From Porticoccaceae bacterium (GTDB lineage Bacteria > Pseudomonadota > Gammaproteobacteria > Pseudomonadales > Porticoccaceae), in NCBI GenBank assembly GCA_029242085.1, contig JAQWUP010000036.1, positions 16,973 through 80,972 of the forward strand: a stretch of DNA of 64,000 nucleotides, in the 5' to 3' direction. Positions 1 to 35,970 of the stretch are shown piece after piece. The position numbers and the translations under genes are program-made. Under the pieces are notes generated by a model, which ran no database searches, was not told the origin of the DNA, and saw nothing but the letters and a program-made list of their open reading frames with translations. Positions within the stretch are counted from its first letter, which is position 1. Each line of letters begins with the position of its first letter.

Positions 1-89
1 TTATGGGTGAAAGAGACCGGCCCTAAAGTGTTATCTTCATGTTAACCATGCTACCTTTTCAAGACTTTTAAAAGGTATGGAGGACTGTG

Positions 90-1754
90 ATGGGTGACGC
101 TATTGATGATATAAAGCGGATTATCGGTACCGCATATCGCCTGCTAATTATCACGTTTAGCCTAGTTGGCTTCATCTCCATCACTGGGTGTAATGAAGCG
201 CCTTCCCGACCCAATGATGCCCCCAAACGTCCCCATGTGATATTGGTCATGGCCGATGATATGGGCTGGGCTCAGACCAGCTTTTATGGCCACCCACTCA
301 TAAAAACTCCCAACCTGGATACTATGGCAGAAAGTGGGCTGCGAATGGATCGTTTCTATGCGGGTTCACCGAGTTGTACGCCCACTCGAGCGACTGTACT
401 TACGGGCCGAACAAACGACCGGACGGGGGCATTTCGTGTTGGAAGTTATCTAAACAAACAAGAGAAGGTGATTTCAACGGCGTTCAAAGAGGCGGGCTAT
501 AAGACTGGCCACTTTGGTAAATGGCACCTCAATCGGGTGGGCACGGAAGAAGCGCTCAAGCATCATCCCCTCCCCGCCGATGATCCGCATAATCCAGGCG
601 AGTTCGGTTTTGACTATTGGCTAAGCAAAACCTCTGGTTGGGATTTAGACCCCGAACTCAGCCGCAATGGGGATCGAGAGCAGTTTGAAGGTGAAGGTTC
701 AGTGGTCATTGTCGACGAGGCACTGAAATTTATCGCCCGTGAGGCATCCGATAACACGCCTGTCTTTGTTGTCATATGGTACTCGGCTCCGCACGGGCCG
801 TGGGCGGCGTCGGACGAAGATATAGCCCCGTTTTTGGGTAAAGTCGATCGCACCTCAGCTCACGCTCATGGAGAGATTGTTGCCATAGATCGGTCCATCG
901 GAAATCTAAGACAAGGCCTCAAAGATCTGGGTATTGCAGATGATACATTGATCTGGTTTACCAGCGATAACGGCGGATCGCCCAACCTCGATGTTCGGGT
1001 ATGGGCCTCTGAAGACCCATTTGGGGGCGCTGGGGGACATGGTATGGAATTAGAATACCCATCTAACTGCAGTGATCAAATCGATCCCGATCTAACAAGT
1101 TTTGAGGCCCGAGAACTGCACGGTTGCATTAGGGGTTTAGACCCAGACAGTACCGGCCACCTGCGCGGATTCAAGAAAGATTTCTATGAAGGCGGGCTGC
1201 GCGTTCCTACGATTATTGAGTGGCCAGCAAACATTGCTCCCAGAGTGACAAATTTTCCATCGGGTACGGTAGATATCTTCCCGACATTGATCGATGTCGC
1301 GGGACTCGACCCCAATTCAATTAACAAAGTCCATGATGGAATCTCCTTATCTGGGGTGTTTCAGAAAGAGTCAGGAAAGCGCGAACAACCCTTGGGGTTT
1401 AGGGCTAATGGGGGGCTGGCGTGGCTGGACAACGATTGGAAACTGTTAAGAAACGTCGATTATGACGGTAAAAAGTTTATTACCACCCCCTATGAGCTGT
1501 ATAACCTAATCGGTGATCCCAGTGAGGAAAATAACCTAATCTATTTGCACCCCGATATCGCTGAGCGCATGAAAAATGAGTATGCGGCGTGGAGCCTGTC
1601 AGTCAGCAGAAGTGCGTTTGGCGAGGATTATCCAGAGGGTGAGGTACTCCCATCAGGACGCGAACTGACCCCGAGAATTGAGAGGGATCGCGAGAAGAAT
1701 CAAATGGTGTGGCGCGAGGAAATAAAGCGATCAGAAATAACGGTGTTACCCTAA
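90..1754 (+). CDS. Sulfatase (arylsulfatase-like), predicted lipoprotein
   Basis: N-terminal hydrophobic segment with lipobox-like ITGC; HVILVMADDMGW metal-binding start; Cys-type sulfatase signature CTPTRATVLTGR; GKWHL and TSDNGG motifs. GTG at 87 or ATG at 90. Confidence 0.93.
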   Translation: MGDAIDDIKRIIGTAYRLLIITFSLVGFISITGCNEAPSRPNDAPKRPHVILVMADDMGWAQTSFYGHPLIKTPNLDTMAESGLRMDRFYAGSPSCTPTRATVLTGRTNDRTGAFRVGSYLNKQEKVISTAFKEAGYKTGHFGKWHLNRVGTEEALKHHPLPADDPHNPGEFGFDYWLSKTSGWDLDPELSRNGDREQFEGEGSVVIVDEALKFIAREASDNTPVFVVIWYSAPHGPWAASDEDIAPFLGKVDRTSAHAHGEIVAIDRSIGNLRQGLKDLGIADDTLIWFTSDNGGSPNLDVRVWASEDPFGGAGGHGMELEYPSNCSDQIDPDLTSFEARELHGCIRGLDPDSTGHLRGFKKDFYEGGLRVPTIIEWPANIAPRVTNFPSGTVDIFPTLIDVAGLDPNSINKVHDGISLSGVFQKESGKREQPLGFRANGGLAWLDNDWKLLRNVDYDGKKFITTPYELYNLIGDPSEENNLIYLHPDIAERMKNEYAAWSLSVSRSAFGEDYPEGEVLPSGRELTPRIERDREKNQMVWREEIKRSEITVLP

Positions 1755-3175: not shown

Positions 3176-3349
3176 AAAAAACATCTATCAAATAATATGA
3201 TACTCACATTCGCCCAAAATATATGCGGTTGCAACAGCCGATGTCCATGCTGTTTATGTATCATTTTAAGTTTTGGGTGATAGTTCAAAAGTGTGATCAA
3301 ACTGCTAAGTGACAGCCAGAATAAAAAGGGCATAATTGTCATTCAAGTA

Positions 3350-4138
3350 ATGATAAGAGAAATAGTGGTGTCGAGATTTGATCTTCAAGATAGGGTAATT
3401 ATAGTCACCGGTGCCTCGGGTGGTATCGGGACAGAAATCTCACGGGAGTGTGCCAGCGCGGGTGCCAAAGTGGTGTTGGCAGGACGCACGGAAAAAACAC
3501 TAGTTGCCTTATCCAATGATCTTAATGGCGCGGACAGTTTTGTTGTAAGTACCGACGTAACTGATCCTGAATCAGTCAAGAATTTGATCGTATCGACTGT
3601 GAAAAAATTTGGCCGCGTTGATGTCATCATCAACAATGTAGGTGGCAGCGCTACCATGTGTGAGCCTGAGGAGACGCCTTATGATGTGTGGTCACGAATG
3701 ATTGATGTCAATCTAAGTTCAACATTTTACTGCTGCATTGAAGCGGGTAAGCAGATGATCAAACAAAAGTCGGGCAAGATTATCAATATTTCGTCGACCG
3801 CCGGTACTAAGGGAAATCCCGGCATGTTGCACTATTCTGCAGCAAAAGCAGGTGTCTTGAGTCTGACTAATAATCTTGCCTTCAAGTGGGCTGAGCACAA
3901 TATCAATGTGAATGCCGTCGTTCCCGGGCTTATAGCGACACCTAATATGATTAAGTGGGGAGTTATACCGGCTGACGTCGATGAAGATGGCAACCATGTG
4001 CCCCGATTAACCCGTCCTCCAGGGCCTGCTGATGTAGCGCATCTCTGCCGATTTCTGGCCTCTGAGGCCGCTGATCTGATTACAGGCGAGGCAATTCCTG
4101 TTCGCTCTTGGGAAAAAGCTGATCGTTTCTGGATTTAG
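3350..4138 (+). CDS. SDR family oxidoreductase
   Basis: VTGASGGIGTEI, NNVGG, YSAAKAG (YxxxK) motifs. ORF opens at 3293; ATG 3350 or GTG 3368 are more plausible starts. Confidence 0.9.
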   Translation: MIREIVVSRFDLQDRVIIVTGASGGIGTEISRECASAGAKVVLAGRTEKTLVALSNDLNGADSFVVSTDVTDPESVKNLIVSTVKKFGRVDVIINNVGGSATMCEPEETPYDVWSRMIDVNLSSTFYCCIEAGKQMIKQKSGKIINISSTAGTKGNPGMLHYSAAKAGVLSLTNNLAFKWAEHNINVNAVVPGLIATPNMIKWGVIPADVDEDGNHVPRLTRPPGPADVAHLCRFLASEAADLITGEAIPVRSWEKADRFWI

Positions 4139-4193: not shown

Positions 4194-7001
4194 GTGTACA
4201 TAAGCAACATTAAAACAACTGATGATTCTCTAGAGCGCATTGGTGGGAAAGGCCGCTCTCTGGCGCGAATGACTTGTGCCAGGTTTAATGTGCCAGGAGG
4301 ATTTTTGGTGACCGCCGATGCCTACAGAACATTTATTGCCGAGAATAACCTTCTCTCAACCATTGTCGATAGAGCTCAGCCCACTCTTAAGGAAGACTAT
4401 CCTGTCTTCGACACCTGTGCAGAGCAAATTTCCGCACTAATTTTGAGCGCGCCGATGAGTGGCACTATTGTCGAACAAATCAAAGCAGCCTACAGTGGCT
4501 TAGAGGATGCTAGTCTTCCGGTTGCTGTCCGATCTTCAGCAAACGCAGAGGATCTTCCAGACTTTTCATTTGCTGGACAACAGGAGACCTACCTCAATGT
4601 TCGCGGCGAGGATGCGGTTGTCAGGGCGGTTCAAAAATGCTGGGCTTCTCTGTGGACAGCCCAAGCAATCAGTTATCGCCATAATAATGGTATAGCGCAA
4701 GACAAGGTCGCTATGGCGGTAGTGGTCCAAACGATGGTGCCTTCTGAAGTATCTGGCATTCTGTTTACGGCAAATCCAACCTCTGGTGAGCGATCGGAAA
4801 TAATTATTAATGCCAGTTATGGGCTTGGAGAGGCAGTTGTTAGCGGTCAAGTGACGCCGGACACATATATCGTCCAACGACCTGATCTCAGTGTTAAAGA
4901 GTCTGTGTTGGGGCCTAAGGAGCAGAAAATTGTTTACGATGGGGAGCAGGGTATTCGCATTGAAGACGTGTCAGAAAATGAACGGCACCATTCATCGTTG
5001 AGTGACACAATGATCAAGGAATTGTGTAAAACCGCCATTGAGATAGAAGGCTTATACAATGGGTTGCCGCAAGATATAGAGTGGGCTTTTTGCGATGGGA
5101 AATTACATTTACTCCAATCGCGTCCAATCACTAACCTGCCTGTCCAACCCATTGATGTTGAGTGGGCGCCGACATTACCTGCCAAATGTGTTAGCCGCCG
5201 GCAAATTGCAGAGAATATGCCGGATCCAATTTCGCCGTTATTTGAAGATCTTTATCTGACTCAGGGGCTAGAGGCACCGCGTGAGAAAAGTCTTATGGTG
5301 GGTGGAGGGGCGATGTTTGTTACTGTGAATGGCTATGCTTATCAGCGATTTGACTGGCCAGCTATCCACAGCAACCTGGAAGCTCGACGAGAGCGAAATA
5401 AAGATCCGCAGGCCGTATCGGAACAAGACATAGAAGCCGCAGAGTATGCGGCATTCAAAGGTGATTTACTTAAACTAAAAGATAGCTTGGCGGATGCGGC
5501 TGCGGGGGATGTTGATCTACTTCGCAATGATATGACTGAGACCGATCGCGTTGTCTTTGACCAGTGGTATGGTGAACAAACGGACGCGAACATCAACTCT
5601 CGTATCTCTATGCCAGAAAGTGAAAATCCCACCTATGTCGCATTCAGTAACACTAAACAAAACGATGCGCAGTTAAAGTATTGGTATGAAAAAACTTTAC
5701 CAAGACTCGAGAACGTTGCAGATAAATGGCTAAAATTAGACGTTGCCAGTGCCTCCGATGAAGAGTTGTTTGACGGCATTTGCGAGCTGGCGATCGAGGA
5801 AGGTCGTTATTGGTCGGATGACTCTAGTCATACCTTTGGTGTCGCCAAGTCGACTGATGATCAACTCCAGTGTTTTTTGCAAGAGACGCTGCCAGACCAC
5901 AATTTTATCAGTGGTCAGTTTCTCACTGGTATTGAATCAAAAACTATGCAGTCCAATGCAGACCTTTTTAAAATCGCAGAGATGTTGCGGTCAGATAAAA
6001 ACTTGATGTACACAGTATTAGTCGTACCCTCGGCCTACCTGTTGCAAGCACTAAAAGATCACGAAAAAGGCGCAGATGTGGTTGCTGCTATTGAGCAATA
6101 TCTCAAGCAGTACGGACATCAGGGTTACAGTATGGACTTTATCGAGCCAACACAGATTGAGGATCCATCGGCACTATTCGCTTCATTAAAAGGAATGGTT
6201 CGGGATAGAAATTACCATCCTAAAAATCAAGGGAAAAAAACTGCGGAGATTCGTGCTGCCAAGTATGAGGAAGTTTCACAATTACTCTCAGGTATTGAAT
6301 ACTGGCAGTTCCGGTTTAGATTGTGGTTAGCGCGCAAGTATAACTTTATTCGTGAGGAAGTCGCGTTTCGATTTGGTTATACCTGGTCAATCTTGCGCCC
6401 GATGGCCTATGAGCTCAATCGACGCCTGATGGAAGCAGAAATACTGGCCGACAAGAATGATATTTTTTTCCTCACTAGTGCTGAGATTAAGCGGGCGATA
6501 GAGGCCAAGGCAAGCAACCAAAAGCCAGACAACTTCCGCGAGCTTGCCGCACAACGGTACCAACTGCGCGAGGCGAGAAAACGCCATCATCCACCGGGTA
6601 CATTGCCCGCAGAGGTTGCCAGCATAGGAGCGGTTTCGTTTAAAGAAACTCAGATTAAAAACGACGAATCGAGCAATATTATGCAAGGTTTCGCAGTGAG
6701 TTCTGGGGTTGTGACCGCCAAGGCAAGTGTGATCTTAGGTCCTTCAGAATTCGATAAAATGGTGCCCGGAGGCATTCTTGTCAGTCCACTGACAACCCCA
6801 GCCTGGACCCAGCTTTTTGCGAATTGTGCTGGCTTGGTCACCGATGTCGGCAGCATTCTTGCGCACGGATCCATTGTGGCGCGCGAATACGGCATACCCG
6901 CGGTTTTGGGTGTGGGCAATGGCACCAAGCGTATCCGCCACGGGCAGACAATAACAATTAATGGTGATCTGGGGACGGTTTTTATCCACGAGGATGAATA
7001 A
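4194..7001 (+). CDS. PEP-utilising enzyme / PEP synthase-like protein (rifampicin phosphotransferase-like architecture)
   Basis: N-terminal PPDK/PEPS ATP-binding domain (GGKGRSLARM, VAVRSSANAEDLPDFSFAGQQETYLNV, IEWAFCDGKLHLLQSRP) and C-terminal mobile His domain (TPAWTQLFANCAGLVTDVGSILAHGSIVAREYGIPAVLG). Confidence 0.88.
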   Translation: MYISNIKTTDDSLERIGGKGRSLARMTCARFNVPGGFLVTADAYRTFIAENNLLSTIVDRAQPTLKEDYPVFDTCAEQISALILSAPMSGTIVEQIKAAYSGLEDASLPVAVRSSANAEDLPDFSFAGQQETYLNVRGEDAVVRAVQKCWASLWTAQAISYRHNNGIAQDKVAMAVVVQTMVPSEVSGILFTANPTSGERSEIIINASYGLGEAVVSGQVTPDTYIVQRPDLSVKESVLGPKEQKIVYDGEQGIRIEDVSENERHHSSLSDTMIKELCKTAIEIEGLYNGLPQDIEWAFCDGKLHLLQSRPITNLPVQPIDVEWAPTLPAKCVSRRQIAENMPDPISPLFEDLYLTQGLEAPREKSLMVGGGAMFVTVNGYAYQRFDWPAIHSNLEARRERNKDPQAVSEQDIEAAEYAAFKGDLLKLKDSLADAAAGDVDLLRNDMTETDRVVFDQWYGEQTDANINSRISMPESENPTYVAFSNTKQNDAQLKYWYEKTLPRLENVADKWLKLDVASASDEELFDGICELAIEEGRYWSDDSSHTFGVAKSTDDQLQCFLQETLPDHNFISGQFLTGIESKTMQSNADLFKIAEMLRSDKNLMYTVLVVPSAYLLQALKDHEKGADVVAAIEQYLKQYGHQGYSMDFIEPTQIEDPSALFASLKGMVRDRNYHPKNQGKKTAEIRAAKYEEVSQLLSGIEYWQFRFRLWLARKYNFIREEVAFRFGYTWSILRPMAYELNRRLMEAEILADKNDIFFLTSAEIKRAIEAKASNQKPDNFRELAAQRYQLREARKRHHPPGTLPAEVASIGAVSFKETQIKNDESSNIMQGFAVSSGVVTAKASVILGPSEFDKMVPGGILVSPLTTPAWTQLFANCAGLVTDVGSILAHGSIVAREYGIPAVLGVGNGTKRIRHGQTITINGDLGTVFIHEDE

Positions 7002-7183
7002 TTCGTCAGTGTAAATCAGCCACTTTCCAACAGAAGATGGCTGTACTTTTAGCCTTTGAAAAAGGATCTTTATATCTATTTGCCGCTCTCATTTTAGTGG
7101 TGAAGCCCGGTATCCAGTGCATTGAAAAGCATTGAAGGCATTAGAGTAGGTGCCTCACACTAACAGTTAACTAGGAGAGAATA

Positions 7184-8371
7184 ATGTCAGTTTTCGGGAA
7201 GGATGAGTTGGCCATGCGAAAATTCGCTTCGAGCATGCCCTTACCAGAATTCGAAGAAACGCACTTCGTTATACCGAAGCCACTAAGTCAGGCGAAGGTG
7301 GCGATAGTCACAACCGCCGGTCTCCATAGACAAGGCACGTCAGGATTTGAAATCGGTGACAGCGATTTTCATTATGAAACCTTGGCGAGGCATACCAGAG
7401 ATCTGCAACTCGGACATCACAGTGTCAATTTTGATCGAGGCGGTTTTGCCGCCGATCTCAATGTTGTATACCCCATTGATCGCCTTGAGGAACTTGCTAC
7501 AGCCGGCGTCATTGGTGAAGTGGCGGGAAATCACTATGCCTTTGCCGGAAACCAGTCAGCAACGGTCTCTGAGATTCGCCTGGACTCAGGGCCGCATTGT
7601 GCTAAAGAAATGCTCGCCGAGAATGTGGAAGTTGTGATTATCACTGGTACCTGTCCTCTTTGCCCGCGCACTGTTTGCACCCTCGCACATGTTTTTGAGG
7701 CCGCAGGCCTTGCTACTATCGTCATCACCCGAGCGAGAGAGGTTGCTGAGCGCATGAGAGTTCCGCGGGCCCTCCACACTGTTTTCCCACCAGGTCTGTC
7801 ACTGGGCAAGCCAAGGGACAAAGCATTTCAGATCGAGGTTTTAACAGCCGCCTTCAAATTATTGGAAGCGCCGCAAGGCCCAGTGATTAACGAATTTCCT
7901 ATTAGTATTAGCGCTACGGACAGCGAACCACTGACCTGTCCTCTTCCACCGCAAATGAATCCGAAACTGCACCCTGCCGTTGATGAAGCTGAAGCCCTTA
8001 GATCTGCCTATTACCGTGCTTACGAGCGCACTAAAAGAACGTCTGTGGGCATGCAAATTAGTGCTGAGGAAATACCGCAAGCGTTAGAGAAGTTTGCAAA
8101 AATAGCGGCAGGCGAGCACTGGGCGGAGGTCGGATTTCTCAATGAGTCAATCGCTGAAGTTATGTATGGAACCGTTCACGATATACGGACTTATTACGAG
8201 GAATTGGCCTGTGAACTCGCAGATGGCCCCATTGGTCCCTGGACCACGGAGCAATGGTTTTACGATAACACCAAAGCCGGTCAAACCATTCTGCAGGCCA
8301 GACGTGTCATGCGAGATAGCGAAGCCGATCAATCCCTGTGGTTTGGATTGGCCACAGCAGGCAGAGAATAA
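7184..8371 (+). CDS. GrdB/PrdB-like (glycine/sarcosine/betaine/proline reductase component B family) protein, Cys form
   Basis: HSVNFDRGGFAADLNVVYPIDRLEELA, IGEVAGNHYAFAG, VVIITGTCPLCPRTVCTLAHVFEAAGLATIVI resemble this family; no in-frame TGA. Confidence 0.75.
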   Translation: MSVFGKDELAMRKFASSMPLPEFEETHFVIPKPLSQAKVAIVTTAGLHRQGTSGFEIGDSDFHYETLARHTRDLQLGHHSVNFDRGGFAADLNVVYPIDRLEELATAGVIGEVAGNHYAFAGNQSATVSEIRLDSGPHCAKEMLAENVEVVIITGTCPLCPRTVCTLAHVFEAAGLATIVITRAREVAERMRVPRALHTVFPPGLSLGKPRDKAFQIEVLTAAFKLLEAPQGPVINEFPISISATDSEPLTCPLPPQMNPKLHPAVDEAEALRSAYYRAYERTKRTSVGMQISAEEIPQALEKFAKIAAGEHWAEVGFLNESIAEVMYGTVHDIRTYYEELACELADGPIGPWTTEQWFYDNTKAGQTILQARRVMRDSEADQSLWFGLATAGRE

Positions 8372-8562: not shown

Positions 8563-10269
8563 ATGTTTAGAGTGATAAAAAGTCGTGCCGAGGCCATCGC
8601 TACAGTCTGTGCGCAGGGGCAGCCCTACGAATTGCAGGAATTAGCTGTCATCGGATATCGTCATAGAGTCTTTGTGAACGCACCGCAAACGCTGCTCGAT
8701 CTGTATCGGGACAACCTCAGTGATATGGACTTTATTGTCTACGAAGAGCAACGCTTGAGCTTTAACGAAGTCTACCTGCAGGCCAGTATGCTGGCGGCTG
8801 CCATGGTTACTGATTTAGGCATTGAAAAAGGGGACCGGGTTGCAATCAGTATGCGCAACTATCCCGAGTGGATTATCGCCTTCTATGCGGCGACCTCGAT
8901 TGGCGCCATCGCCGTCGCCTTCAATGCCCTGTGGAGTAGCGGCGACCTAGCCGATGGCATTCTAGATGCCACACCAAAACTTATCATTGTCGATCAGGAG
9001 AGACTCGACTGTCTGGGTCAGTGCGAGGGGTTGCCGGCTGCGCTACAAATAATGAGAACCCGGGCTGTGCCAAATGTTCAGATCACCTCTCTGGACTGGA
9101 GCGATGTCTTACGGGAACAGAGGGGCGCTGCGATGCCCACAGTTGATGTGGATCCGGATGATCATGCAACGATTCTCTATACCTCGGGATCGACGGGATC
9201 TCCCAAAGGTGTATTGTCCTCTCATCGCGCGATTATAAACGCTCTGTTATCCTGGGAACTGGATGAATGCCTGCTCGCCGAAATGGGTATTCACAGCCCC
9301 GTTAAGTTAGATTTTCAGAAGGGAATGTTGCTTGCCATTCCACTGTTCCATGTGTCGGGGCTGTTGGTCAGTTGCCTGATGTCTCTGCGTGCCCAGCGAA
9401 AACTTGGCTGTCTTTACAAATGGGACACGGAGGCCGCACTGGCCTTAATCGAGCGAGAGCGTTTGACCGTTTGTTCAGCCCCTTCGGCGATCACTGGCGA
9501 TATTATCTCGGCCGGTCTTCGCAGCGCGCGCGATTTATCTAGCTTGCGGATTATCGGTGGTGGCGGAATGCATCGCGCACCGGAGCAGGTAAAAGCCATT
9601 GGCGGGTTCAGCGATCTTCTACAGCCACATACCGGATGGGGTATGACAGAGACCAATGGGCTGGGTGTAGGTATATTTGGTAATGATTACCTGACGCGCC
9701 CGGAAAGCAGTGGGCGGTGCTCTGCGGTGCTGGATATTCGCGTTGTCGATAAGGCGGGAGACGAACTTCCGTACGGTGAAAAAGGTGAGTTGCAAATTCG
9801 TGGGACCACTCTGTTTAGCGGCTACTGGAATCAAACTGAGGCGACGATCCAAGCATTTGACGGCGAATGGTTTAGAACCGGTGACAGAGCGACTATCGAT
9901 GAAGAGGGCTTTGTCTATATCAATGGTCGATTTAAAGAGCTTATTATCCGTGGCGGTGAGAACATTGGTTGCGGCACTGTAGAGGACGCAATCCTCGAAC
10001 ACCCAGACGTTATCGAAGCCTCAGCATACGGCGTGCCAGACGGTCGACTCGGCGAGGAAGTAGGCGTCACGCTCTATGTGGACAAAGAGATTAGCGGCGA
10101 TCAGTTACGTGAATTTCTCAGCGACAAGCTGGCCGTGTTTGAAGTGCCTCGCTATATACTGCAGCAACATATGCCGTTGATCCGTGGCGATACCGAAAAG
10201 ATTCAACGACGACAAATCAAACTAGAAGCCCTGGAGTTACTGGGGTTTAGCGCAGCACAAGATGATTGA
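8563..10269 (+). CDS. Class I adenylate-forming enzyme / acyl-CoA synthetase
   Basis: ILYTSGSTGSPKGVLSSH, GWGMTETNG, YWNQTEATIQAFDGEWFRTGD, GRFKELIIRGGENI motifs. Confidence 0.92.
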   Translation: MFRVIKSRAEAIATVCAQGQPYELQELAVIGYRHRVFVNAPQTLLDLYRDNLSDMDFIVYEEQRLSFNEVYLQASMLAAAMVTDLGIEKGDRVAISMRNYPEWIIAFYAATSIGAIAVAFNALWSSGDLADGILDATPKLIIVDQERLDCLGQCEGLPAALQIMRTRAVPNVQITSLDWSDVLREQRGAAMPTVDVDPDDHATILYTSGSTGSPKGVLSSHRAIINALLSWELDECLLAEMGIHSPVKLDFQKGMLLAIPLFHVSGLLVSCLMSLRAQRKLGCLYKWDTEAALALIERERLTVCSAPSAITGDIISAGLRSARDLSSLRIIGGGGMHRAPEQVKAIGGFSDLLQPHTGWGMTETNGLGVGIFGNDYLTRPESSGRCSAVLDIRVVDKAGDELPYGEKGELQIRGTTLFSGYWNQTEATIQAFDGEWFRTGDRATIDEEGFVYINGRFKELIIRGGENIGCGTVEDAILEHPDVIEASAYGVPDGRLGEEVGVTLYVDKEISGDQLREFLSDKLAVFEVPRYILQQHMPLIRGDTEKIQRRQIKLEALELLGFSAAQDD

Positions 10270-11491
10270 GGAGCAGGCTATTTCTGATACTACCCCCAAT
10301 GCACGTCCCCTCGAGGGCATGAAGATACTTGAACTCGGTCAGATTCTGGCGGGGGCGTTTACCACTACCATGCTGGGGTATTTTGGTGCCGAAGTGATCA
10401 AGGTCGAGCCACCGGGCGAGGGCGATCCGATCCGCAATTGGCGTACCGTCAAAGATGGGACGTCACTCTGGTGGTGGAGTCTTGCCCGCAATAAGCAATC
10501 CATCACCATCAATCTCAAGTTGCGAGAGGGCCAGCAGTTGGTCCGACAGCTGTGTGAACAGTGCGATGTTTTAATTGAAAACTTCCGTCCGGGCCAGATG
10601 GAAAAATGGGGTTTGGGCCCGGCAGAAATAAAACAGATAAATCCCAGCCTGATCTACACCCGCATCTCCGGGTATGGCCAAACCGGTCCCTATTCGAGCT
10701 ACCCCGGCTTTGCCTCAGTCTGTGAGGGCTTTGGTGGCTTTCGCTATGTCAATGGCGAGCCCGGTGAGATTCCGGTTCGACCCAACCTCAGTCTGGGCGA
10801 TACGCTGGCCGGTCTTCACGCTGCACTGGGAGTGTGCATGGCCTATATTCGCTGTTTGCAGCAGGGTCAGGGCAAGGGTCAGGTGGTCGACGTCTCGATA
10901 TTTGAATCTGTGTTTAATATGCTCGAAGCGGTGGTGCCGGAATATTCGGGTGTCGGTAAAGTGCGTGAGCCCTCGGGGAGCACCATCAAGGGAATCGTTC
11001 CGTCAAATACTTATCGCTGTGAGGATGAAAAACTCATTATTATCGGTGCCAATACCAAAGGCATGTTTGAACGGCTGATGCGCTTGGTCGGGCGAGATGA
11101 TTTTGCCGATGACCCGCGTCTGGCGACTAATTCTGGGCGGGTTACCCATGAAGAGGCAATCGATAAGGCGATAGCCGATTGGGCTGCGACAGTGCCGTTA
11201 AAAGACGCACTGGCGATGTTGCAAGAGCAAGCGGTTGCCGCTGGACCGATTTTAAATGTGGAGGATATGTTTGCTGATCCACACTATCAGGCGCGAGGTG
11301 CCTTTGAGGAAGTTTCGGTAAATGGCGAAATATTGCATATACCTTCTATTGCCCCCAGGCTGGAGGAGACCCCGGGGCGAACTGATAGGCCCGGTCCGCA
11401 ACTCGGTGAGCATACTGATCAGATATTCAAAGCCCTGTTGGGCCTGGACGATAAAGCCTTGGCGCGATTGCGGGATTTGGGCGCCATCTAG
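10262..11491 (+). CDS. CaiB/BaiF family (type III) CoA-transferase
   Basis: LEGMKILELGQILAGAFTTTMLGYFGAEVIKVEPPGEGDPIRNW, ARNKQSITINLK, LIENFRPGQMEKWGL. Start overlaps the upstream stop by 8 nt. Confidence 0.93.
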   Translation: MIEEQAISDTTPNARPLEGMKILELGQILAGAFTTTMLGYFGAEVIKVEPPGEGDPIRNWRTVKDGTSLWWWSLARNKQSITINLKLREGQQLVRQLCEQCDVLIENFRPGQMEKWGLGPAEIKQINPSLIYTRISGYGQTGPYSSYPGFASVCEGFGGFRYVNGEPGEIPVRPNLSLGDTLAGLHAALGVCMAYIRCLQQGQGKGQVVDVSIFESVFNMLEAVVPEYSGVGKVREPSGSTIKGIVPSNTYRCEDEKLIIIGANTKGMFERLMRLVGRDDFADDPRLATNSGRVTHEEAIDKAIADWAATVPLKDALAMLQEQAVAAGPILNVEDMFADPHYQARGAFEEVSVNGEILHIPSIAPRLEETPGRTDRPGPQLGEHTDQIFKALLGLDDKALARLRDLGAI

Positions 11492-11596: not shown

Positions 11597-12265
11597 ATGC
11601 CGATCCACTACGTCAGTAATTCGACTGCCGCTTTGGAAGTGGCCGCCATTGCAGAAAAACGGGGAGTTCAAGCCCGGATCTACAAAGCTGATATCGGTGA
11701 TCAGAAGCAGTGCTATAGACTCGCAGATGAGGTTGTTAGAGAGTTCGAGCAGCTAGATATTTTGATTAACAACGCCGGACTCGGTTCAACGTCAATTCAA
11801 CGACCTTCCATCAGCGATGCGACTGATGCACAGTGGGATCAACTGATGTCAGTCAACTTCTGGGGCCCGGTTTGGCTGTGTCGTGTTCTGGTACCTCATA
11901 TGCGTCGCGCACCACGCAGTGACGTCATCGTGATGTCAAGCATCGCAACCAAGGTGCTGTCATCGGGTTTTGGTGTCTATGCGGTCAGCAAAACTGCACT
12001 GGAGGCCATGGCGCATACCCTGGCCCGTGAAGAAAAGCCCAATGGTATGCGCGTCAATATTATTGCCCCTGGCTTGGTCGACACCGATATGGGGCAGTCA
12101 GTGGTAGCGGCCACCGGCCGCGGCAGCAATCTGCGCGATGCAGATGCAAATTCGCCATTTGGTTTCGTCTGCACGCCCGCTGATATTGCTGCGACGGCCC
12201 TATACCTATGTTCAGAGGATGGGCGTTATATTACAAATCAGAGAATCCAAGTATCGGGTGACTAG
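11597..12265 (+). CDS. SDR family protein, apparently lacking the N-terminal nucleotide-binding segment
   Basis: INNAGLG, SSIATKVLSSGFGVYAVSKTALE, IAPGLVDTDM present; the ORF starts after the expected TGxxxGIG motif. Confidence 0.7.
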   Translation: MPIHYVSNSTAALEVAAIAEKRGVQARIYKADIGDQKQCYRLADEVVREFEQLDILINNAGLGSTSIQRPSISDATDAQWDQLMSVNFWGPVWLCRVLVPHMRRAPRSDVIVMSSIATKVLSSGFGVYAVSKTALEAMAHTLAREEKPNGMRVNIIAPGLVDTDMGQSVVAATGRGSNLRDADANSPFGFVCTPADIAATALYLCSEDGRYITNQRIQVSGD

Positions 12266-13874: not shown

Positions 13875-14663
13875 TTACTGACCAGTCTCTCTGGCGGCGT
13901 GTATTTGTTTGAGCAATAACAGCGTATTCAGTGATTTATCCATAACAAATTGAGGACACTGGCTAAGTCCTGCTACCACGCAACGATGAACTGCCCCATC
14001 TCCGAAATCAAATAGCGCGCCGCCGGTTGTGGTACCCATTGCCGCGGCAGCGCTCATCGCTGAAAGGGTCTGGGGCTTCTTTTTAGTGCCAAAACTGAGG
14101 GTCACAGCCTGTGTGGTATACAGGGGGTTTAAATCGGATTGCACCATAACAACGTCGCCGATGGCGCCCGTACCTATGAGCATTTGGGTATATTCAACTG
14201 CGGGAAAGAAGCGAGTCCAGACAGCGGCCTGAAGCATCAGCTTATGTTTTTTTGCGGTGGCGTACATTTCCTCGGCATCAGTGACGCTCTGTGCGAGTTC
14301 TTTTTCGCATAGAAGATGTTTTCCGACATTTAACGCCAGCACGCAGTGCTCTTTATGTAGATTATCGGGTGTGGCAATATAAACAATATTGATATCCAAG
14401 CTTGCAAACATCTCTGGTTAGTTATTATAAAATTTCTCAATCCTATGTAGCCGAGTAAAGTCATTGGCCTTTTTCATAGAGCGGGAGGTAACGGCTGCGA
14501 GTGTCGCGCCTTGACAGACGTTTAAGACCTCAACCCACTGTCGCGAAATAGTACCTGTTCCGAAGATTCCCTAGCGCAGGAGAAACGAACTGTCCTCCGC
14601 TTTGGTTAAACTCAGACGGATATCTCGCGGGGTTTGTGGCAGTAGGTTGGCGTTATTGTTCAT
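13875..14663 (-). pseudogene. Gfo/Idh/MocA-family oxidoreductase with two in-frame nonsense codons
   Basis: Continuous frame from ATG at 14663: ...FLLR*GIFGTGTISRQW...VTSRSMKKANDFTRLHRIEKFYNN*PEMFASLDINIVYIATPDNLHKEHCVLAL...GKHLLCEKE. TAG at 14573-14571 and TAA at 14420-14418. The C-terminal half looks internally shortened. Confidence 0.85.
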
Positions 14664-17611: not shown

Positions 17612-18892
17612 GTGATTAAATTGGGAATTTTGGCCGACGATTTGACTGGCGGTATGATGGTGGCGAGTCTACTCGAACGCGAGGGCGTTGAATGTCCGTT
17701 AGTCAGTTCAGTTGATGCCCTAGCCGATATCTCGCCGACTGCCACTGCGGTGGTGGTGGCCCGCAAAGTACGGTTGGTCGATGCCTCCACCGCCGTTGAG
17801 GAGGCACAGCAAACAGTATCGGCACTCCTACAACTGGGCTGCAAGCGGTTTTATTATAAATATTGCGCCACCTTTGACTCCACTGAAAAGGGTAATATCG
17901 GGCCGATTGCCGAAGCAATGTCAGAGGCGCTTGGCGCCAGTCGGACCTTGTTTTGTCCGGCCTTTCCGGAGCATACCGTAACAGTATTTCAGGGCATGAT
18001 GTTTATTGGTAGCACACCACTGGGCCAATCATTTAAGCAATTCGATCCCGTTACGCCCATGCTAAACTCCAATCTTGTCGATGTACTGCAGTCTCAGACC
18101 GACGACTCAGTAGGTTTGTTGTCACACAATCTCCTGCAGCGCGGAAGGGAAGCATTTGAGTCATATATTACGCAACCCAGTGCTGCAAAATTCTACATTG
18201 CAGATGCAGCTGATGATAATGATCTCGAACGCATCGCAGAGTACGTTAAAGACTGGCCGCTCACCACTGGTGCAGATGCACTGCCGATTTTTCTTGCTCG
18301 GGCTTGGCAAGCAGAAAAACAGTCTAGAACAAGACGCAAGCCCAAAAGCCTGTTACCAGCAAGCCCCGGATTTGAGGCCTTTATTGCGGGTAGTTGTGCT
18401 AGTGCAACACTCAAGCAATTAGAGCAATTTGAGATTCGTCATCCGGTGTTTAAGATTGATCTGCTCGCCGCTGTTAAAGACCCAGATTATGTTGCCAGTG
18501 TTTTGCGCTGGGCCAAGCAGGAGCTATGCAATCAGCCGATAGCCATTACATCCTCTGCAGATGCTGAGGAACTAAAGCGCAGCCAAAGCGTGCTCGGTCG
18601 AGAGGGCGCTTCCGATTTGGCCGATTGCCTTTTGGGTCAGGTCGCTGAGGGCCTTTTTGATCTCGGGGTACGCAAATTTGTTGTGGCAGGGGGTGAGACC
18701 TCAGGTCAGGTGATCAATGCCTTGGGAATCAAAAAAGTCGAGGTATCTAGGTTTGATGAGCTCGGCGGTGGCTACTGCCATCAGGGCGGTGAGGATCCTG
18801 TCTCGTTTGTCTTAAAAGCGGGAATGCTGGGGCGCCCAGATTTTTGTTTTACGGCGTTCGAACGCATGCGTCTTGCCGAGACAAGCAGTTAA
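17612..18892 (+). CDS. Four-carbon acid sugar kinase family (DUF1537/OtnK-like)
   Basis: LGILADDLTGGMMVASLLEREG, KYCATFDSTEKGNIGPIAEAM, FCPAFPEHTVTVFQGMMFIG, VAGGETSGQVINALGI. Confidence 0.9.
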   Translation: MIKLGILADDLTGGMMVASLLEREGVECPLVSSVDALADISPTATAVVVARKVRLVDASTAVEEAQQTVSALLQLGCKRFYYKYCATFDSTEKGNIGPIAEAMSEALGASRTLFCPAFPEHTVTVFQGMMFIGSTPLGQSFKQFDPVTPMLNSNLVDVLQSQTDDSVGLLSHNLLQRGREAFESYITQPSAAKFYIADAADDNDLERIAEYVKDWPLTTGADALPIFLARAWQAEKQSRTRRKPKSLLPASPGFEAFIAGSCASATLKQLEQFEIRHPVFKIDLLAAVKDPDYVASVLRWAKQELCNQPIAITSSADAEELKRSQSVLGREGASDLADCLLGQVAEGLFDLGVRKFVVAGGETSGQVINALGIKKVEVSRFDELGGGYCHQGGEDPVSFVLKAGMLGRPDFCFTAFERMRLAETSS

Positions 18893-19739: not shown

Positions 19740-20717
19740 CTAGGAGACAGGTACGTCTGTTACCCACACCTCCGGTGAAGAAAGCCACGTTTTATCCTTG
19801 GCGGTGCGGCCATCCCAACCACCGGCCACATACAGTCGGCCATCAATGATACGTGATGCGGGTGATGAAATGGGTTTGGGGAGCTTGCAGGTGTACTCCC
19901 ATTCGCCACCTTCAGTCAGCGTTAAAATATGTGAGCAGAAAGTCTTCGTACCACCGTCGGGAGTCCAGTGCCCACCCACCATCCAGATTCTGTCCTGATG
20001 AACAAAGGTGGCTCCCTCTGAGTGTGAATGGGCTATCGGTAAATCGGGGCCGTTGCGCCAGCTATCGGTTACCGGATCATAAATATCGGTACGTCGTTGA
20101 TCGAGTTGTTGCGAATCGTGATTAAATTGGCCACCGATGGCATAAATTTGATTGTTAAGTACCGCAACGGATAGTTGATTACGACCCACCTTAAGCGGTG
20201 CCCTGTGGGTCCATTCTGCCTTACCGGTCTTATCCCAGGCATCAAGATCAAAAGCCCAATGATCCGTTGAGTCGGTGTCACGGTCTTCCTCCAGCCCGGA
20301 AATATAGTGCAGATTATTGCCGATCCTGGCGAGGCCGCCACCCGCTCGCTTGCTCGGTAGTAGTGGCGCCGCAGTGTAGCGGTCTTGTTTGGGGTCGAAG
20401 TGCCAGACTTCGGCGATGATATGCTCGCTCACCGTTTGCCCGTCACCGGGCCTATCTTTCATTCCCCCAGCAAACCAGAAGCCGCTGGAACCCGCGACCA
20501 AATTGACATGTGAAATCTTACTCGGCAGGTTCTGCAGCACCGTCCATGATTGATCGTTGGGGTCGAACATCTGTAATCGATCACTGGATTTGACCGTATC
20601 TAAATAACCACCCAGAACATACAGTTTACCTTCTAGTTTCACGCTGGCAGGTTCCCAGCTACCATAGGGCATATCGGCTAGCTGTTGCCAGGTTACATCA
20701 TGCACGGGTTGGTTCAC
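19740..20717 (-). CDS. Kelch repeat-containing protein
   Basis: Repeated LYVLGGY / NQIYAIGGQ / RIWMVGG / RLYVAGGWDG blades. GTG start at 20717, 10 nt after the upstream SDR, preferred to the longer ORF. Confidence 0.85.
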   Translation of the reverse strand: MNQPVHDVTWQQLADMPYGSWEPASVKLEGKLYVLGGYLDTVKSSDRLQMFDPNDQSWTVLQNLPSKISHVNLVAGSSGFWFAGGMKDRPGDGQTVSEHIIAEVWHFDPKQDRYTAAPLLPSKRAGGGLARIGNNLHYISGLEEDRDTDSTDHWAFDLDAWDKTGKAEWTHRAPLKVGRNQLSVAVLNNQIYAIGGQFNHDSQQLDQRRTDIYDPVTDSWRNGPDLPIAHSHSEGATFVHQDRIWMVGGHWTPDGGTKTFCSHILTLTEGGEWEYTCKLPKPISSPASRIIDGRLYVAGGWDGRTAKDKTWLSSPEVWVTDVPVS

Positions 20718-20727
20718 GTGATATTCC

Positions 20728-21513
20728 TTAAAATTGTCGATCGAGCGCCGCCAATAGGTCAGCGCAGCGTTGCTCAAGCATCTTGCGAGTATGGGTACCG
20801 TCGCAAAAGATATAAAATTCATCGGTTAATATGGCATTCATCACCTGTTGCCCGACTGTATCGGCCGGCACTGCCATATCAGCGATCAGGGTACTGATTT
20901 TTTCATCAACTTTTTGTTGCAGGTTCTGAATAATCGGGGTGTCGACAACATGGGGACACAGCACAGAGACACCAATATGAGTGCCAGCCAGATCATTGCG
21001 TAAATATTCAGACAGGCCAACCAGGGCGAATTTACTGCTACCGTAAGCCGATTGATGTCCATGACCCTGGATCCCGCTAAATGACGAGGTGTTGACGATA
21101 TGCCCCGCTTCACCATGCTCGAGCATACCGGGCAGGAACTGATTGATACCGTTGAGGGGGCCGTAGAAGTTGACTTCCATAACACCGCGCCACTTTTTGT
21201 CCGTGGTATCGAGAATCTTATCACCGCCGCCGATGCCGGCATTGTTGCAAAGTACATGTAGTGCACCGAAAGATTGTTCAATGCGCGCTGCGGCCTGTTT
21301 TAGCGAGTCGCGATTGGTTGAGTCGATCGCTAAGGCTATTACATTGTCGGTGATCGCCCTGAGCTCGGCCTCTGCGACTGGCAGCTGGTGTTTTTGTATA
21401 TCGCTGATGACTACGTTCATACCGGCTTTTGCGAATGTTCTCGCCATGCCGAGACCGATACCGCCCGCGGCACCGGTGATAAAGGCCGTTTTGTTCTTTA
21501 AAGTCTCCATCAA
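20728..21513 (-). CDS. SDR family oxidoreductase
   Basis: TAFITGAAGGIGLGMARTF, LCNNAGIGG, SAYGSSKFALVGLSEYLR. Confidence 0.92.
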   Translation of the reverse strand: MMETLKNKTAFITGAAGGIGLGMARTFAKAGMNVVISDIQKHQLPVAEAELRAITDNVIALAIDSTNRDSLKQAAARIEQSFGALHVLCNNAGIGGGDKILDTTDKKWRGVMEVNFYGPLNGINQFLPGMLEHGEAGHIVNTSSFSGIQGHGHQSAYGSSKFALVGLSEYLRNDLAGTHIGVSVLCPHVVDTPIIQNLQQKVDEKISTLIADMAVPADTVGQQVMNAILTDEFYIFCDGTHTRKMLEQRCADLLAALDRQF

Positions 21514-22619
21514 ATATCAGTCACTTTGTTATGTTCAATAAGGTCGAAGTCGATTTCATAACCCAGCCCGGGACTTGTTGGCGCATGCACCATGCCATGT
21601 TTATCCACCTTGATATCCTCGATCAGGCCATGCTTTTGCGCGGTGTCCGGCAGCAGCACTTCAAACAGCTCTGAATTGGGCAGGGCCATCAGCAAGTTCA
21701 GGTTGGCGACATTGTTGAGCGAGTTTCCACCGTGGTGAATCTCATAATTCATTTGAAAGGTCTCGGCGGTGTGGGCGGTTTTTAGACAGGAGGTGAGGCC
21801 ACCTTTGAGCGCCGGGTCACCGCGCAGATAGTCGGTAGCTCTGTGCAGCAACCATGGCGCATAGGTGGTGGGGCCATTAGCTGGCAATTCGGTTGCCATC
21901 AGAGGGATTTTAAGTACCTGTTTTAGTTTTTCGTAACCGTAGATATCATCCCACTTAAGGGGATCCTCAAACCAGTAAAAACCAAGTTCCTCTATTACCT
22001 GACCGACCCGAAGCGCATCGGGATAGTCGTAGGACCAAGTGGAATCGAGCATTAAGCGAAAGTCATCGCCGACTGCTTCTCTTACCGCTTTACAAATACT
22101 GATATCCTCAGCTGCTATGCCGGGGGGGTGCATTTTATAGGCGTGCCAGCCAGCCTCTTTGTACTTGAGCGCGTATTCGACGTACTCCTCGGCAGAGCCT
22201 AAAATCTGAGAGCTCGCGTAGGCGGGAGCCGACTCTCGAAAGGTACCCATGATTTTATGCACCGGGACACCTGCCGCTTTGCCAGCCAAATCCCAGAGTG
22301 CAACATCAACTGCGCCAATCACTCTCATGCTGCCGCCGGAAGCCCATCTGGCCATTTTTTGCCAGATCAATTCGCGGTCAAACGGGTCTCTACCTACAAG
22401 TAGTGGCTTATATCGCTCTACAAGCGTTGCGCCATCTCTGCCGATAGGGCTATAGGCAGAACCGAGAAATGCGTGCCCCTCAATACCTTCATCAGTCAGG
22501 ATCCTGACTAATCCCATCTGAGAGTTGTGAGCTTTATCGGCTTTGAAGTCGCGCAAGTATTGAACTGGAGGGATATCCTTCCAGTTCCAGATCGTGATTT
22601 TGACATCTGTTATTTTCAA
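21510..22619 (-). CDS. Enolase superfamily protein (mandelate racemase/muconate lactonizing enzyme-like)
   Basis: KITDVKITIWNWKDIPPVQ, VDVALWDLAGKAAGVPVHKIMG, AYKMHPPG, DSTWSYDYPDALRVGQVIEELGFYWFEDPL. TTG start at 22619 after an AGAGGGA-like RBS, preferred to ORF start 22907. Confidence 0.9.
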   Translation of the reverse strand: MKITDVKITIWNWKDIPPVQYLRDFKADKAHNSQMGLVRILTDEGIEGHAFLGSAYSPIGRDGATLVERYKPLLVGRDPFDRELIWQKMARWASGGSMRVIGAVDVALWDLAGKAAGVPVHKIMGTFRESAPAYASSQILGSAEEYVEYALKYKEAGWHAYKMHPPGIAAEDISICKAVREAVGDDFRLMLDSTWSYDYPDALRVGQVIEELGFYWFEDPLKWDDIYGYEKLKQVLKIPLMATELPANGPTTYAPWLLHRATDYLRGDPALKGGLTSCLKTAHTAETFQMNYEIHHGGNSLNNVANLNLLMALPNSELFEVLLPDTAQKHGLIEDIKVDKHGMVHAPTSPGLGYEIDFDLIEHNKVTDI

Positions 22620-22764
22620 CGTTGTTCCCTCTGTTGGATTAATAATTTCATGATAAGCATTTTTTATGCGTTTAATAACAACGACCAGATGTTCCTTTTG
22701 ATGCGTAAAATTACCTTCACTGAGAGTAATCTCAGGTTCAAAATTGGTCAATAAAGATAGAATA

Positions 22765-22807
22765 CCTTTCACCCATAAAGAGGGGTTTAAATTTATGGGT
22801 GAAAAGG
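22765..22807. promoter_or_regulatory. Inverted-repeat putative operator CCTTTCACCCATAAA-12nt-TTTATGGGTGAAAAGG
   Basis: 13-bp perfect arms 22767-22779 / 22792-22804, in the gap between divergent genes 22619(-) and 22943(+). Confidence 0.8.
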
Positions 22808-22942
22808 AGCGTACCAGATCTATTCTGGGTCGCTTGATTAGTGTTAACTTATACAAAAAGTAACGAGAGGAATCAGTCGCAATATAAATTCTTAAGAGGG
22901 CTACCAATTATTTGTGGCGACTGCGATAGATTGCCTCAGGAA

Positions 22943-25670: not shown

Positions 25671-26005
25671 TTTAAGCCGTCAACCAAACTGCGCTCACGC
25701 TTGGGTCTATTCACCCATTATTGCTGGTGTTAAAGGCCTGTTGCCTAACTATAAATTAGGCCTAATCAAGCTTAGCAGAGCCTTAAGAAAGCGCAGCGAT
25801 GCGAAAAATTTGGGTGGCTTTTGATGATCAAAGCTGACCGACATAACTGACTTCTTATATAATCGCATTGTGCGTTTGATGGCTTAGGTGGCAGTTGTGG
25901 CAGTGAGGTCTGGCGACTTGTGGATTGGCTGTTCTTTTCGCGGGAAAAAATCTATCTGCACTGGTAGGGCGCGCAATTGAAAAAAACATCATGGTTGGAT
26001 CGATT

Positions 26006-27193
26006 ATGGTAGACAATTTTTTTAACCCCAGACAGGTTTTCACAACAAAAGATGAAACTCCGCCACGGGTGCTGAATGCGCCGCAGAAATATATTCAGGG
26101 AGCCGGCGTTCTCAACCATGTTGGACACTATATTGACAGTCTTATGCAGGTAGAACGCGCGGCCATTTTTGCCACGCGGCGCGGGCTTGCGACTCAGGGC
26201 GCTCAAATCGCCCAAAGCCTGCGGGCTCAATCCACCGATGTGGTTAGTGCGCAGTTCAATGGAGAGTGCTCACAAGCTGAAATCGCGGCGCATTTTGGCG
26301 CGCTTGCCGATAAGCAACTCGATTGCCTTATCGCGGTAGGCGGTGGAAAACTGGTCGATGCTGGTAAGTGTATCGCCCATCGGCTCAATGTGCCGGTCAT
26401 CGTTGTACCGACACTGGCCAGCACCGATGCACCCACCTCGGCACTGTCAGTTGTCTACAAACCGGAGGGTACCGCAGAGTCTGTGGAATTTTTCCCACAG
26501 AACCCGACCATGGTGATTGTTGATACCGATGTGATCGTCAGTGCGCCCGAACGTTATTTTGTCGCGGGAATGGGCGATGCGATGGCGACCTGGTATGAGA
26601 CTAAAGTGTGTCTCAACAACCCCGCTGCTCGCAACTCTATGGGTGCCCTGCCTACTCTGGCTTCCTGTGCAGTGGCAGAGATGTGTGCCCAAACACTTTT
26701 TGAATTCGGCGAGACGGCAGCGGCGTCGGTGCTGGTGAACCAGAACAATGCCGCGGTGGACAAAGTCGTCGAGGCTAATACGCTGCTCAGCGGTATTGGC
26801 TTTGAGAGTGGCGGCCTTGCTCTGGCCCATGCGATCGCGCTTGCCTATCCAGAGATAGATATTATCCATGATCGCTATCTGCATGGAGAGATGGTGGCAA
26901 TGGGCACCTTGGCGCAGCTCGCCATGGAGGATTCAGTCGATGCTGAACGCGTCACTCGATTTTTTGCTCGGGTTGGGCTGCCAGTACACTTCGGCCAAAT
27001 TTCCCTCGAAGCCGATAAAGGTAACGTTATGAATACACTAATCGAGGCGACTCTGGCAAGACCAATTGCTCACAATATGCCGATGTCAGTCACCGGTTCT
27101 TCCCTGCGCGAGGCGTTATTTAAGGCGCATAAACTGGGGCTGGAAGTTTCGGTTGATGAAGGCGATAAGGCCTACGCCAGACTGCATACTTAA
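26006..27193 (+). CDS. Iron-containing alcohol dehydrogenase, glycerol dehydrogenase-like
   Basis: PQKYIQGAGVLNHVGHYI, LIAVGGGKLVDAGKCIAHRLNVPVIVVPTLASTDAPTSALSVVY, GMGDAMATWYETK, GGLALAHAIALA. ORF opens at 25925; ATG 26006 preferred. Confidence 0.9.
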   Translation: MVDNFFNPRQVFTTKDETPPRVLNAPQKYIQGAGVLNHVGHYIDSLMQVERAAIFATRRGLATQGAQIAQSLRAQSTDVVSAQFNGECSQAEIAAHFGALADKQLDCLIAVGGGKLVDAGKCIAHRLNVPVIVVPTLASTDAPTSALSVVYKPEGTAESVEFFPQNPTMVIVDTDVIVSAPERYFVAGMGDAMATWYETKVCLNNPAARNSMGALPTLASCAVAEMCAQTLFEFGETAAASVLVNQNNAAVDKVVEANTLLSGIGFESGGLALAHAIALAYPEIDIIHDRYLHGEMVAMGTLAQLAMEDSVDAERVTRFFARVGLPVHFGQISLEADKGNVMNTLIEATLARPIAHNMPMSVTGSSLREALFKAHKLGLEVSVDEGDKAYARLHT

Positions 27194-29687: not shown

Positions 29688-29752
29688 GCGGCCGGTTCGA
29701 GACTTTAAATATTAGCGATATACTCGGTCCGAACTAACAACCCCTAGAGATA

Positions 29753-33818: not shown

Positions 33819-33821
33819 AGA

Positions 33822-34874: not shown

Positions 34875-35030
34875 TCTGAACGATACAAAGAGGGGTATTG
34901 AGATGGTTCGCGAATCGATATTACATCAACTGGTGATAGATTGCCCTGCGATGACGGTGATCGCAGAGGTTCGTAATCATCCGGTTTGGCAGTCTTATTT
35001 CGCCAGTGAACTGCGTCGGCGAGGATAAAT

Positions 35031-35924: not shown

Positions 35925-35970
35925 TTACCCGGCCCTTTCTCAGGTTGCCCTATTCAAAGGAGACGAGTTA

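Follow-up and report, generated by a model that had tools for sequence, protein, structure and literature searches.

The gene at positions 7184-8371 of the window, by which we mean the whole 64,000-nucleotide stretch of DNA analyzed here, codes for a protein that, judged by its sequence, belongs to the GrdB/PrdB superfamily and is neither PrdB nor GrdB. An ancestral selenocysteine (Sec) was replaced by Cys157 (UPLC to CPLC) a single time, in a SAR92-related clade, and the SECIS hairpin decayed. The long PrdB-like protein is stand-alone, with no pyruvoyl-forming partner detected, and its gene is linked with a catabolic island in several lineages, though not universally. Taken jointly, the identity of the protein and its Sec-to-Cys history are close to certain. 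The explanation that best covers the whole, and that we hold at roughly even chances, is a stand-alone thiol/selenol enzyme that would catalyze a C-X cleavage step in the catabolism of sugar-acid/acyl conjugates. The gene and its catalytic region comprise the following features.

7184-8371 (+), Cys-form long stand-alone PrdB-like protein, 395 aa; catalytic domain ~30-240, helical C-terminal extension ~260-390
7652-7654 (+), TGT codon of Cys157; TGA (Sec) here in 76/80 nearest relatives and in PrdB
7661-7663 (+), TGC codon of Cys160, second Cys of UxxC/CxxC, invariant in the 46- and 49-sequence alignments
7666-7682 (+), decayed bacterial SECIS stem; 3/6 pairs remain versus 5-6/6 in 76/76 Sec relatives

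Family assignment and integrity of the gene

The open reading frame runs uninterrupted over 395 aa on the forward strand of the window sequence and is preceded by a plausible ribosome site (AGGAGAG, 7173-7179). Pfam GRDB (PF07355) matches residues 9-156 with 43.6 bits, which is above the gathering score of 22 bits used for membership of the GRDB superfamily, and the match ends at T156, immediately before Cys157. NCBIfam PrdB (TIGR04483) was also matched (E = 3e-34), with 118.3 bits against an equivalog cutoff of 300, and the GrdB-type model TIGR01918 gave 52.1 bits, under its subfamily cutoff of 65.45. On the TIGR04483 scale, two real PrdBs scored 406 and 310 bits, and members of the long clade ~110-118 bits. 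HMM comparison thus bears out the resemblance to GrdB/PrdB noted in a preliminary description of this DNA, and the curated cutoffs, together with the partner searches described below, rule out a true PrdB or GrdB.

The gene is present in a single copy in the window's genome (a 2.19-Mb MAG, 82.7% complete), and an 88%-identical ortholog occurs in 'SAR92 bacterium MED-G29', of the same genus, which marks the window as DNA of a SAR92-type gammaproteobacterium. It is under purifying selection, with a dN/dS of 0.078 between the window gene and its same-genus ortholog; this value and the full-length frame rule out a frameshifted or dead gene. Decoding of Sec from a stop within the window's own gene is ruled out as well, there being no in-frame TGA in 7184-8368.

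Architecture and predicted structure

Proteins of the long clade measure ~380-395 aa and consist of a PrdB-like domain followed by a C-terminal extension that is not present in PrdB. The window protein shares this length and C-terminal domain, and also the U/C-P-x-C motif and the 41-88% identity by which the clade was delimited. A model predicted from 46 sequences reached a pLDDT of 93.3 and a pTM of 0.91 (an earlier AlphaFold model, built from 14 sequences, had a pLDDT of 79). It places the CxxC between a predicted strand (150-154) and a predicted helix (160-173), and the C-terminal part, residues 264-389, is helical. A fold search of a PDB copy with both AlphaFold models yielded no significant match, nor did PDB sequence searches with the window protein, two profiles and one real PrdB; the C-terminal domain matched nothing known. 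This confidently predicted fold is thus without a solved relative among the entries of that PDB copy.

The 46-row alignment takes in distant long and short relatives, and the residues invariant in all rows are D91, P97, C157, C160, E172, G175, T178, R195, P202, G204, G208, D212 and Q216. Both cysteines are also unchanged throughout the 49-sequence alignment.

Cys157 occupies the Sec position

In the TGTCPLC motif, Cys157 aligns exactly with Sec, and Cys160 with the second Cys of UxxC. The aligned Sec is that of TAGUGTC in the PrdBs of Ligilactobacillus salivarius and Peptoclostridium acidaminophilum, and that of TGTUPLC or TPVUPLC in homologs with an in-frame TGA. The preliminary description had placed the CxxC near the expected Sec motif, and the alignment makes this correspondence exact; the window protein thus has, as expected of PrdB, a Sec/Cys residue at the catalytic position within a UxxC-type pair. 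Threonine, a candidate for the Sec-position residue according to the GrdB motif UGTCTRC, was rejected, since Cys157 itself aligns with Sec.

A scan for relatives, with one genome per species, returned 288 proteins. Among the best 80 of these 288, an in-frame TGA is found at the Cys157 site in 76 and Cys in four. The relatives come from Pseudomonadota, Binatota, Actinomycetota (Acidimicrobiia), Chloroflexota, Myxococcota and Dormibacterota, some of these labels being coarse. All 76 TGA forms carry a SECIS-type hairpin 14 nt downstream of the first TGA base, with 6/6 stem pairs in 70 sequences and 5/6 in six, whereas 3.2 of 6 pairs would be expected if identical peptides were encoded with the codon usage of the respective gene. 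One stem pair covaries: 64 sequences have T-A and 11 have C-G. In what is a compensatory change, an Arg codon tracks the choice of Thr or Val, ten codons after the TGA triplet region. The TGAs of the 76 relatives are Sec codons.

The long-clade combination of Sec at position 157 with a downstream SECIS is absent from the window, which has a TGT codon and a broken hairpin; pair 17-27 of the hairpin is gone in 5/5 Cys forms. In a maximum-likelihood tree, the window protein and the four other Cys forms make up one clade (support 100/99), whose sister is the Sec form L050 of the SAR92 cluster (99/91), and the surrounding branches are Sec. The Cys codon is TGT, one base away from TGA, in all five. 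This is a single replacement amid Sec forms (76/80 nearest relatives) and does not mark a separate non-Sec branch, so that any repurposing, as suggested in the preliminary description, would be older and common to the whole Sec family.

No tRNA-Sec scored above cutoff in four of the five Cys-form genomes (the window's genome G000, MED-G29 and those of L088 and L047). The fifth, that of L046, retains tRNA-Sec, and the Sec-to-Cys swap may thus precede the loss of the Sec machinery. SelB above cutoff together with tRNA-Sec is missing in three Cys genomes and found in most Sec-form genomes; in one search set, tRNA-Sec was detected in 22 of 26 Sec-form genomes.

Two further observations concern the distribution of the Sec machinery. 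Another genome of the window's genus (G163, 97% complete) has SelB and tRNA-Sec and no PrdB-like gene, the Sec trait being patchy in the genus. At loci L039 (G246:C59) and L044 (G021:C2), the PrdB-like Sec gene directly adjoins selA-selB homologs; at G246:C59 a tRNA-Sec also lies nearby, and another contig carries a further selB and tRNA-Sec. The arrangement at these two loci looks as if the selenoprotein moved together with its own decoding machinery.

No partner subunits detected

D-proline and glycine reductases require a pyruvoyl-forming subunit of the PF09338 family. No PF09338 (PrdA/GrdE) match was obtained in 12 genomes around the window, its own (82.7% complete) among them, or in 27 from the wider family, which include complete chromosomes (e.g. 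G255); the two sets overlap by one or two genomes, making ~37 in all. The same search detects PrdA/GrdE-type genes in two records known to carry them. GrdA (PF04723) was likewise without a match in 12 genomes including the window's, in a search run without a positive control. Most of the genomes are incomplete MAGs, which weakens these absences. For PF09338, the lack of partner subunits mentioned in the preliminary description extends from the window to the ~37 genomes searched (0 matches, with a positive control), and it suggests that the family probably does an undescribed thiol/selenol-based job.

Immediate neighbors in the window

The genes closest to the PrdB-like gene are the following.

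3293-4138 (+), SDR oxidoreductase, retained in the same genus
4194-7001 (+), PEP-utilizing enzyme (PPDK_N and mobile His domain); near the PrdB-like gene in the same-genus genome, L064 and L048
8563-10269 (+), AMP-binding acyl-CoA ligase
10262-11491 (+), CaiB-type CoA-transferase; a second genus has a 68-70% identical copy at ~5 kb from its PrdB-like gene
11597-12265 (+), SDR oxidoreductase

Family matches confirmed the PEP-utilizing enzyme, AMP-binding ligase, CaiB and two SDRs that had been named as neighbors. The linkage suggested for them held in part: the run SDR - PEP-utilizing enzyme - PrdB-like - ligase - CaiB - SDR is kept within the genus, the PEP-utilizing enzyme recurs in two further lineages and CaiB (~70% identity) in one, but the run as such is not kept elsewhere, and the direct neighbors of the 80 best relatives (of 288) are very mixed. 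Conservation of the immediate neighborhood as originally proposed was therefore rejected, the run being kept only in the same-genus genome. When all 64 kb of the window were compared with the other loci, in turn, a reading of 'no conserved context' was overturned.

The PEP-utilizing enzyme at 4194-7001 has ATP-grasp and mobile His domains and no recognized PEP/pyruvate-binding domain, a set that recalls rifampin phosphotransferase- or PigC/RedH-type enzymes.

A catabolic island at the scale of the window

Window genes up to ~45 kb away from the PrdB-like gene have homologs next to it at other loci; they are listed here together with a 3-oxo-tetronate kinase-like gene of the window.

87-1754 (+), sulfatase; 58% homolog near the PrdB-like gene in L064
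15639-17087 (-), carboxylesterase; L055 and L064 have homologs near their PrdB-like genes
17612-18892 (+), 3-oxo-tetronate kinase-like protein (346.7 bits versus a cutoff of 350)
19740-20822 (-), Kelch-repeat protein; L046 and L055 have homologs co-directional with their PrdB-like genes
20728-21513 (-), SDR; L046, L055 and L048 have homologs beside their PrdB-like genes
21510-22907 (-), enolase-superfamily sugar-acid dehydratase-like protein; L046 and L055 have homologs beside their PrdB-like genes
25925-27193 (+), glycerol-dehydrogenase-type Fe-ADH; L055 and L064 have homologs near their PrdB-like genes
27253-28641 (-), ADP-ribosylglycohydrolase-family hydrolase; 71% homolog in the L046 run
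28929-37473 (+), unknown protein - ECH - GPH symporter - AMP ligase - APH - SSF symporter; same order, ending in the PrdB-like gene, in L047
43970-45439 (+), aldehyde dehydrogenase; L050 and L088 have a 74-75% homolog near their PrdB-like genes
50972-52411 (+), homolog (68-71%) of an aldehyde dehydrogenase that L050 and L088 have near their PrdB-like genes

The genes that recur beside the PrdB-like gene at 45-75% identity encode the sugar-acid dehydratase, Kelch protein, SDR, Fe-ADH and PEP-utilizing enzyme, as well as the SSF, APH, ADP-ribosylglycohydrolase-like and CaiB proteins, and recurrence was seen in five other lineages besides the same-genus locus. Six window genes are shared by each of L046 and L047, six by L055, four by L064, four by L050/L088 and three by L048. 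Three or more are shared at eight PrdB-like loci, versus one match in two and two matches in none of 24 control stretches of 8-20 kb, a small set taken from the same or related genomes, mostly the same. At the 45% threshold, 14 of 23 close PrdB-like loci share zero window genes.

In L046/L047 (Cys forms) the genes form one co-directional run, ECH - GPH symporter - AMP ligase - APH - SSF - PrdB-like - ADP-ribosylglycohydrolase-like - MR_MLE sugar-acid dehydratase-like - SDR - Kelch - GFO/IDH. The run of L055 (Sec form) starts with the PrdB-like gene and continues SDR - Kelch - Fe-ADH - MR_MLE. L048 has several copies of the PEP-utilizing enzyme near its PrdB-like gene, in addition to those of L064 and the window's genus. 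Family models point to sugar acids and polyols (arabinonate/galactarate dehydratase-like; glycerol-dehydrogenase subfamily, above cutoff; 3-oxo-tetronate kinase-like, just under cutoff), and the window also encodes two AMP ligases, CaiB, three acyl-CoA dehydrogenases, ECH/3HCDH and a thiolase. Of the CoA-ester catabolic run initially described, the catabolic character stands, while gene content is as much that of sugar-acid as of CoA-ester breakdown.

Other features of these loci are recorded here as separate observations. At 13875-14657 (-), the window has a broken GFO/IDH/MocA gene, which contains two in-frame stops and lacks the middle part of its intact 360-aa homolog in L046. On a complete chromosome (G255:C1, ~417-452 kb, L139-L141), several paralogs of the PEP-utilizing enzyme (PPDK_N and mobile domain; four by clustering) lie within ~40 kb around one PrdB-like Sec gene. 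Fe(II)/2-oxoglutarate dioxygenase (PhyH/TauD) genes adjoin or lie near PrdB-like Sec genes of several lineages, at L056, L059, L063, L066, L073, L077, L078, L040 and L041. In five Chloroflexota genomes (L096, L097, L101, L102, L105), the PrdB-like Sec gene is preceded, at a distance of 69-131 bp, by a fused biotin carboxylase/carboxyltransferase gene of ~1136-1211 aa and has a convergent acyl-CoA dehydrogenase gene on its other side.

Proposed function and alternatives

The long PrdB-like protein is likely a redox-active CxxC enzyme. That its reaction is reductive C-X cleavage, for which we infer both chemistry and substrate, falls somewhat short of an even chance; cleavage of C-N or C-S bonds, as earlier proposed, is plausible and unproven. 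In glycine and D-proline reductases, GrdB/PrdB chemistry consists in the attack of a selenolate on carbon (PMC10298544). C-F cleavage has been proposed for a GrdB relative whose partner does not have the cysteines needed to form the pyruvoyl group (PMC10838667); together, these precedents make a C-X mechanism possible.

In such a mechanism, the substrate would be held by the catalytic and C-terminal domains, and Cys157 (Sec in relatives) would attack its carbon, or a heteroatom attached to carbon, with release of the leaving group by C-N, C-S, C-O or C-halogen cleavage. Cys160 could then resolve the adduct, forming a disulfide and freeing Cys157, and the disulfide would be reduced by thioredoxin or a small thiol. 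The reaction would need no pyruvoyl Schiff base, unlike those of D-proline and glycine reductases, and may represent one step in the breakdown of sugar-acid/acyl conjugates. The hosts of the long PrdB-like clade are probably aerobic. We tentatively raise the possibility that the clade is a new class of stand-alone (seleno)enzymes of mostly marine, probably aerobic bacteria, which would perform pyruvoyl-free reductive C-X cleavage and has been recorded as proline reductase.

The main rival, in itself unlikely, is a general thiol oxidoreductase or peroxidase acting on disulfides, peroxides or sulfoxides, whose link to the island would reflect protection of the pathway. A UxxC/CxxC at the start of a helix, as in the predicted model, is the usual redox motif (motif table in PMC1088965); outside the five linked lineages neighborhoods are mixed, and in L051 the PrdB-like gene has a thioredoxin-like DsbH protein as neighbor. 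However, fold and sequence are those of GrdB/PrdB, where Sec attacks carbon, and are unlike thioredoxin or peroxiredoxin, many invariant residues lie outside the motif, and the linkage of one catabolic gene set in five lineages exceeds the needs of a housekeeping reductase.

Two other readings are more improbable than this, both to the same degree. In the first, the ancestral chemistry is gone from the Cys clade and the protein is non-redox, with either a metal or a substrate thiol bound at the former Sec site. Metal binding is indeed frequent for CxxC motifs, and the Cys form arose where the Sec machinery is mostly missing, but both Cys and all surrounding residues are retained under a dN/dS of 0.078, and Cys forms share gene partners with Sec forms (L046 versus L055). 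In the second, the association is due to chance, a mobile gene having landed accidentally in unrelated catabolic islands; gene position and partners do vary between genera, against which stand the eight loci with three or more shared genes and the near-empty controls (2 of 24 with one match, 0 with two). A true D-proline/glycine-type reductase component, with a pyruvoyl partner too diverged or located in unassembled DNA, is very improbable: PrdB is the best family model and the genomes are draft MAGs, but PF09338 is absent in all searched genomes including complete chromosomes (G255) with a positive control, scores are ~110-118 bits versus a cutoff of 300 and 310-406 for real PrdBs, and length and C-terminal domain differ.

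Comparison with known systems

The stand-alone enzyme that we favor shares with PrdB (TIGR04483) the superfamily and the span of the catalytic domain (~29-30% identity, from residue 1/30 to 233), the Sec of TAGUGTC aligning with Cys157 and its second Cys with Cys160. It differs in length, PrdB having ~240 aa versus 395 aa and an extra C-terminal helical domain in the window protein, in the replacement of Sec by Cys, in its score (118 bits versus a cutoff of 300) and in lacking the PrdA pyruvoyl partner. GrdB, GrdF and GrdH (PF07355, TIGR01917/01918), the proteins B of glycine, sarcosine and betaine reductase, are related to it through the Pfam GRDB match above gathering score. Unlike them, the window protein is without the N-terminal ~190 residues, stays under the TIGR01918 cutoff, has no GrdA/GrdE that could be found, and carries T163 where the GrdB motif UxxCxxC has its third Cys (PMC13188914).

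The monofluoroacetate reductive defluorinase FarB/FarE of Synergistota (PMC10838667) resembles it in being built on a GrdB-type Sec protein with a proposed C-X attack that does without a pyruvoyl Schiff base. FarB is, however, GrdB-type and not PrdB-type, has a GrdE-like partner (FarE), is anaerobic and, as described, does not have the CxxC that the window protein keeps.

Sec-to-Cys replacements were rare in a 2006 survey, which counted 15 events in four families and did not list proline reductase (PMC1794560). The Cys clade offers a dated, single-base example with a decayed SECIS, that is, a natural experiment, and its matched Sec and Cys orthologs (~72% identity) are good material for the question of why Sec is needed.

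Openly licensed literature on SAR92/SAR202 selenoproteins and on PrdB-like proteins outside anaerobes held no account of the long clade, the missing partner or the island. Marine 'PrdB' selenoproteins with UxxC were cataloged as proline reductase subunits in surveys of the Sargasso Sea and GOS, whose relevant passages report 42 Sec forms for the former and 235 Sec and 110 Cys forms for the latter, among the most abundant selenoproteins of ocean metagenomes (PMC1088965, PMC2398784). These proteins probably include the long clade; the same passages make no mention of a missing pyruvoyl partner, a long architecture, an island link or a Sec-to-Cys history. Being without a pyruvoyl partner, the long marine forms are not D-proline reductase as known. 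The evidence says that they are a distinct enzyme, linked in several lineages to a recognizable catabolic gene set, and this link makes its function testable.
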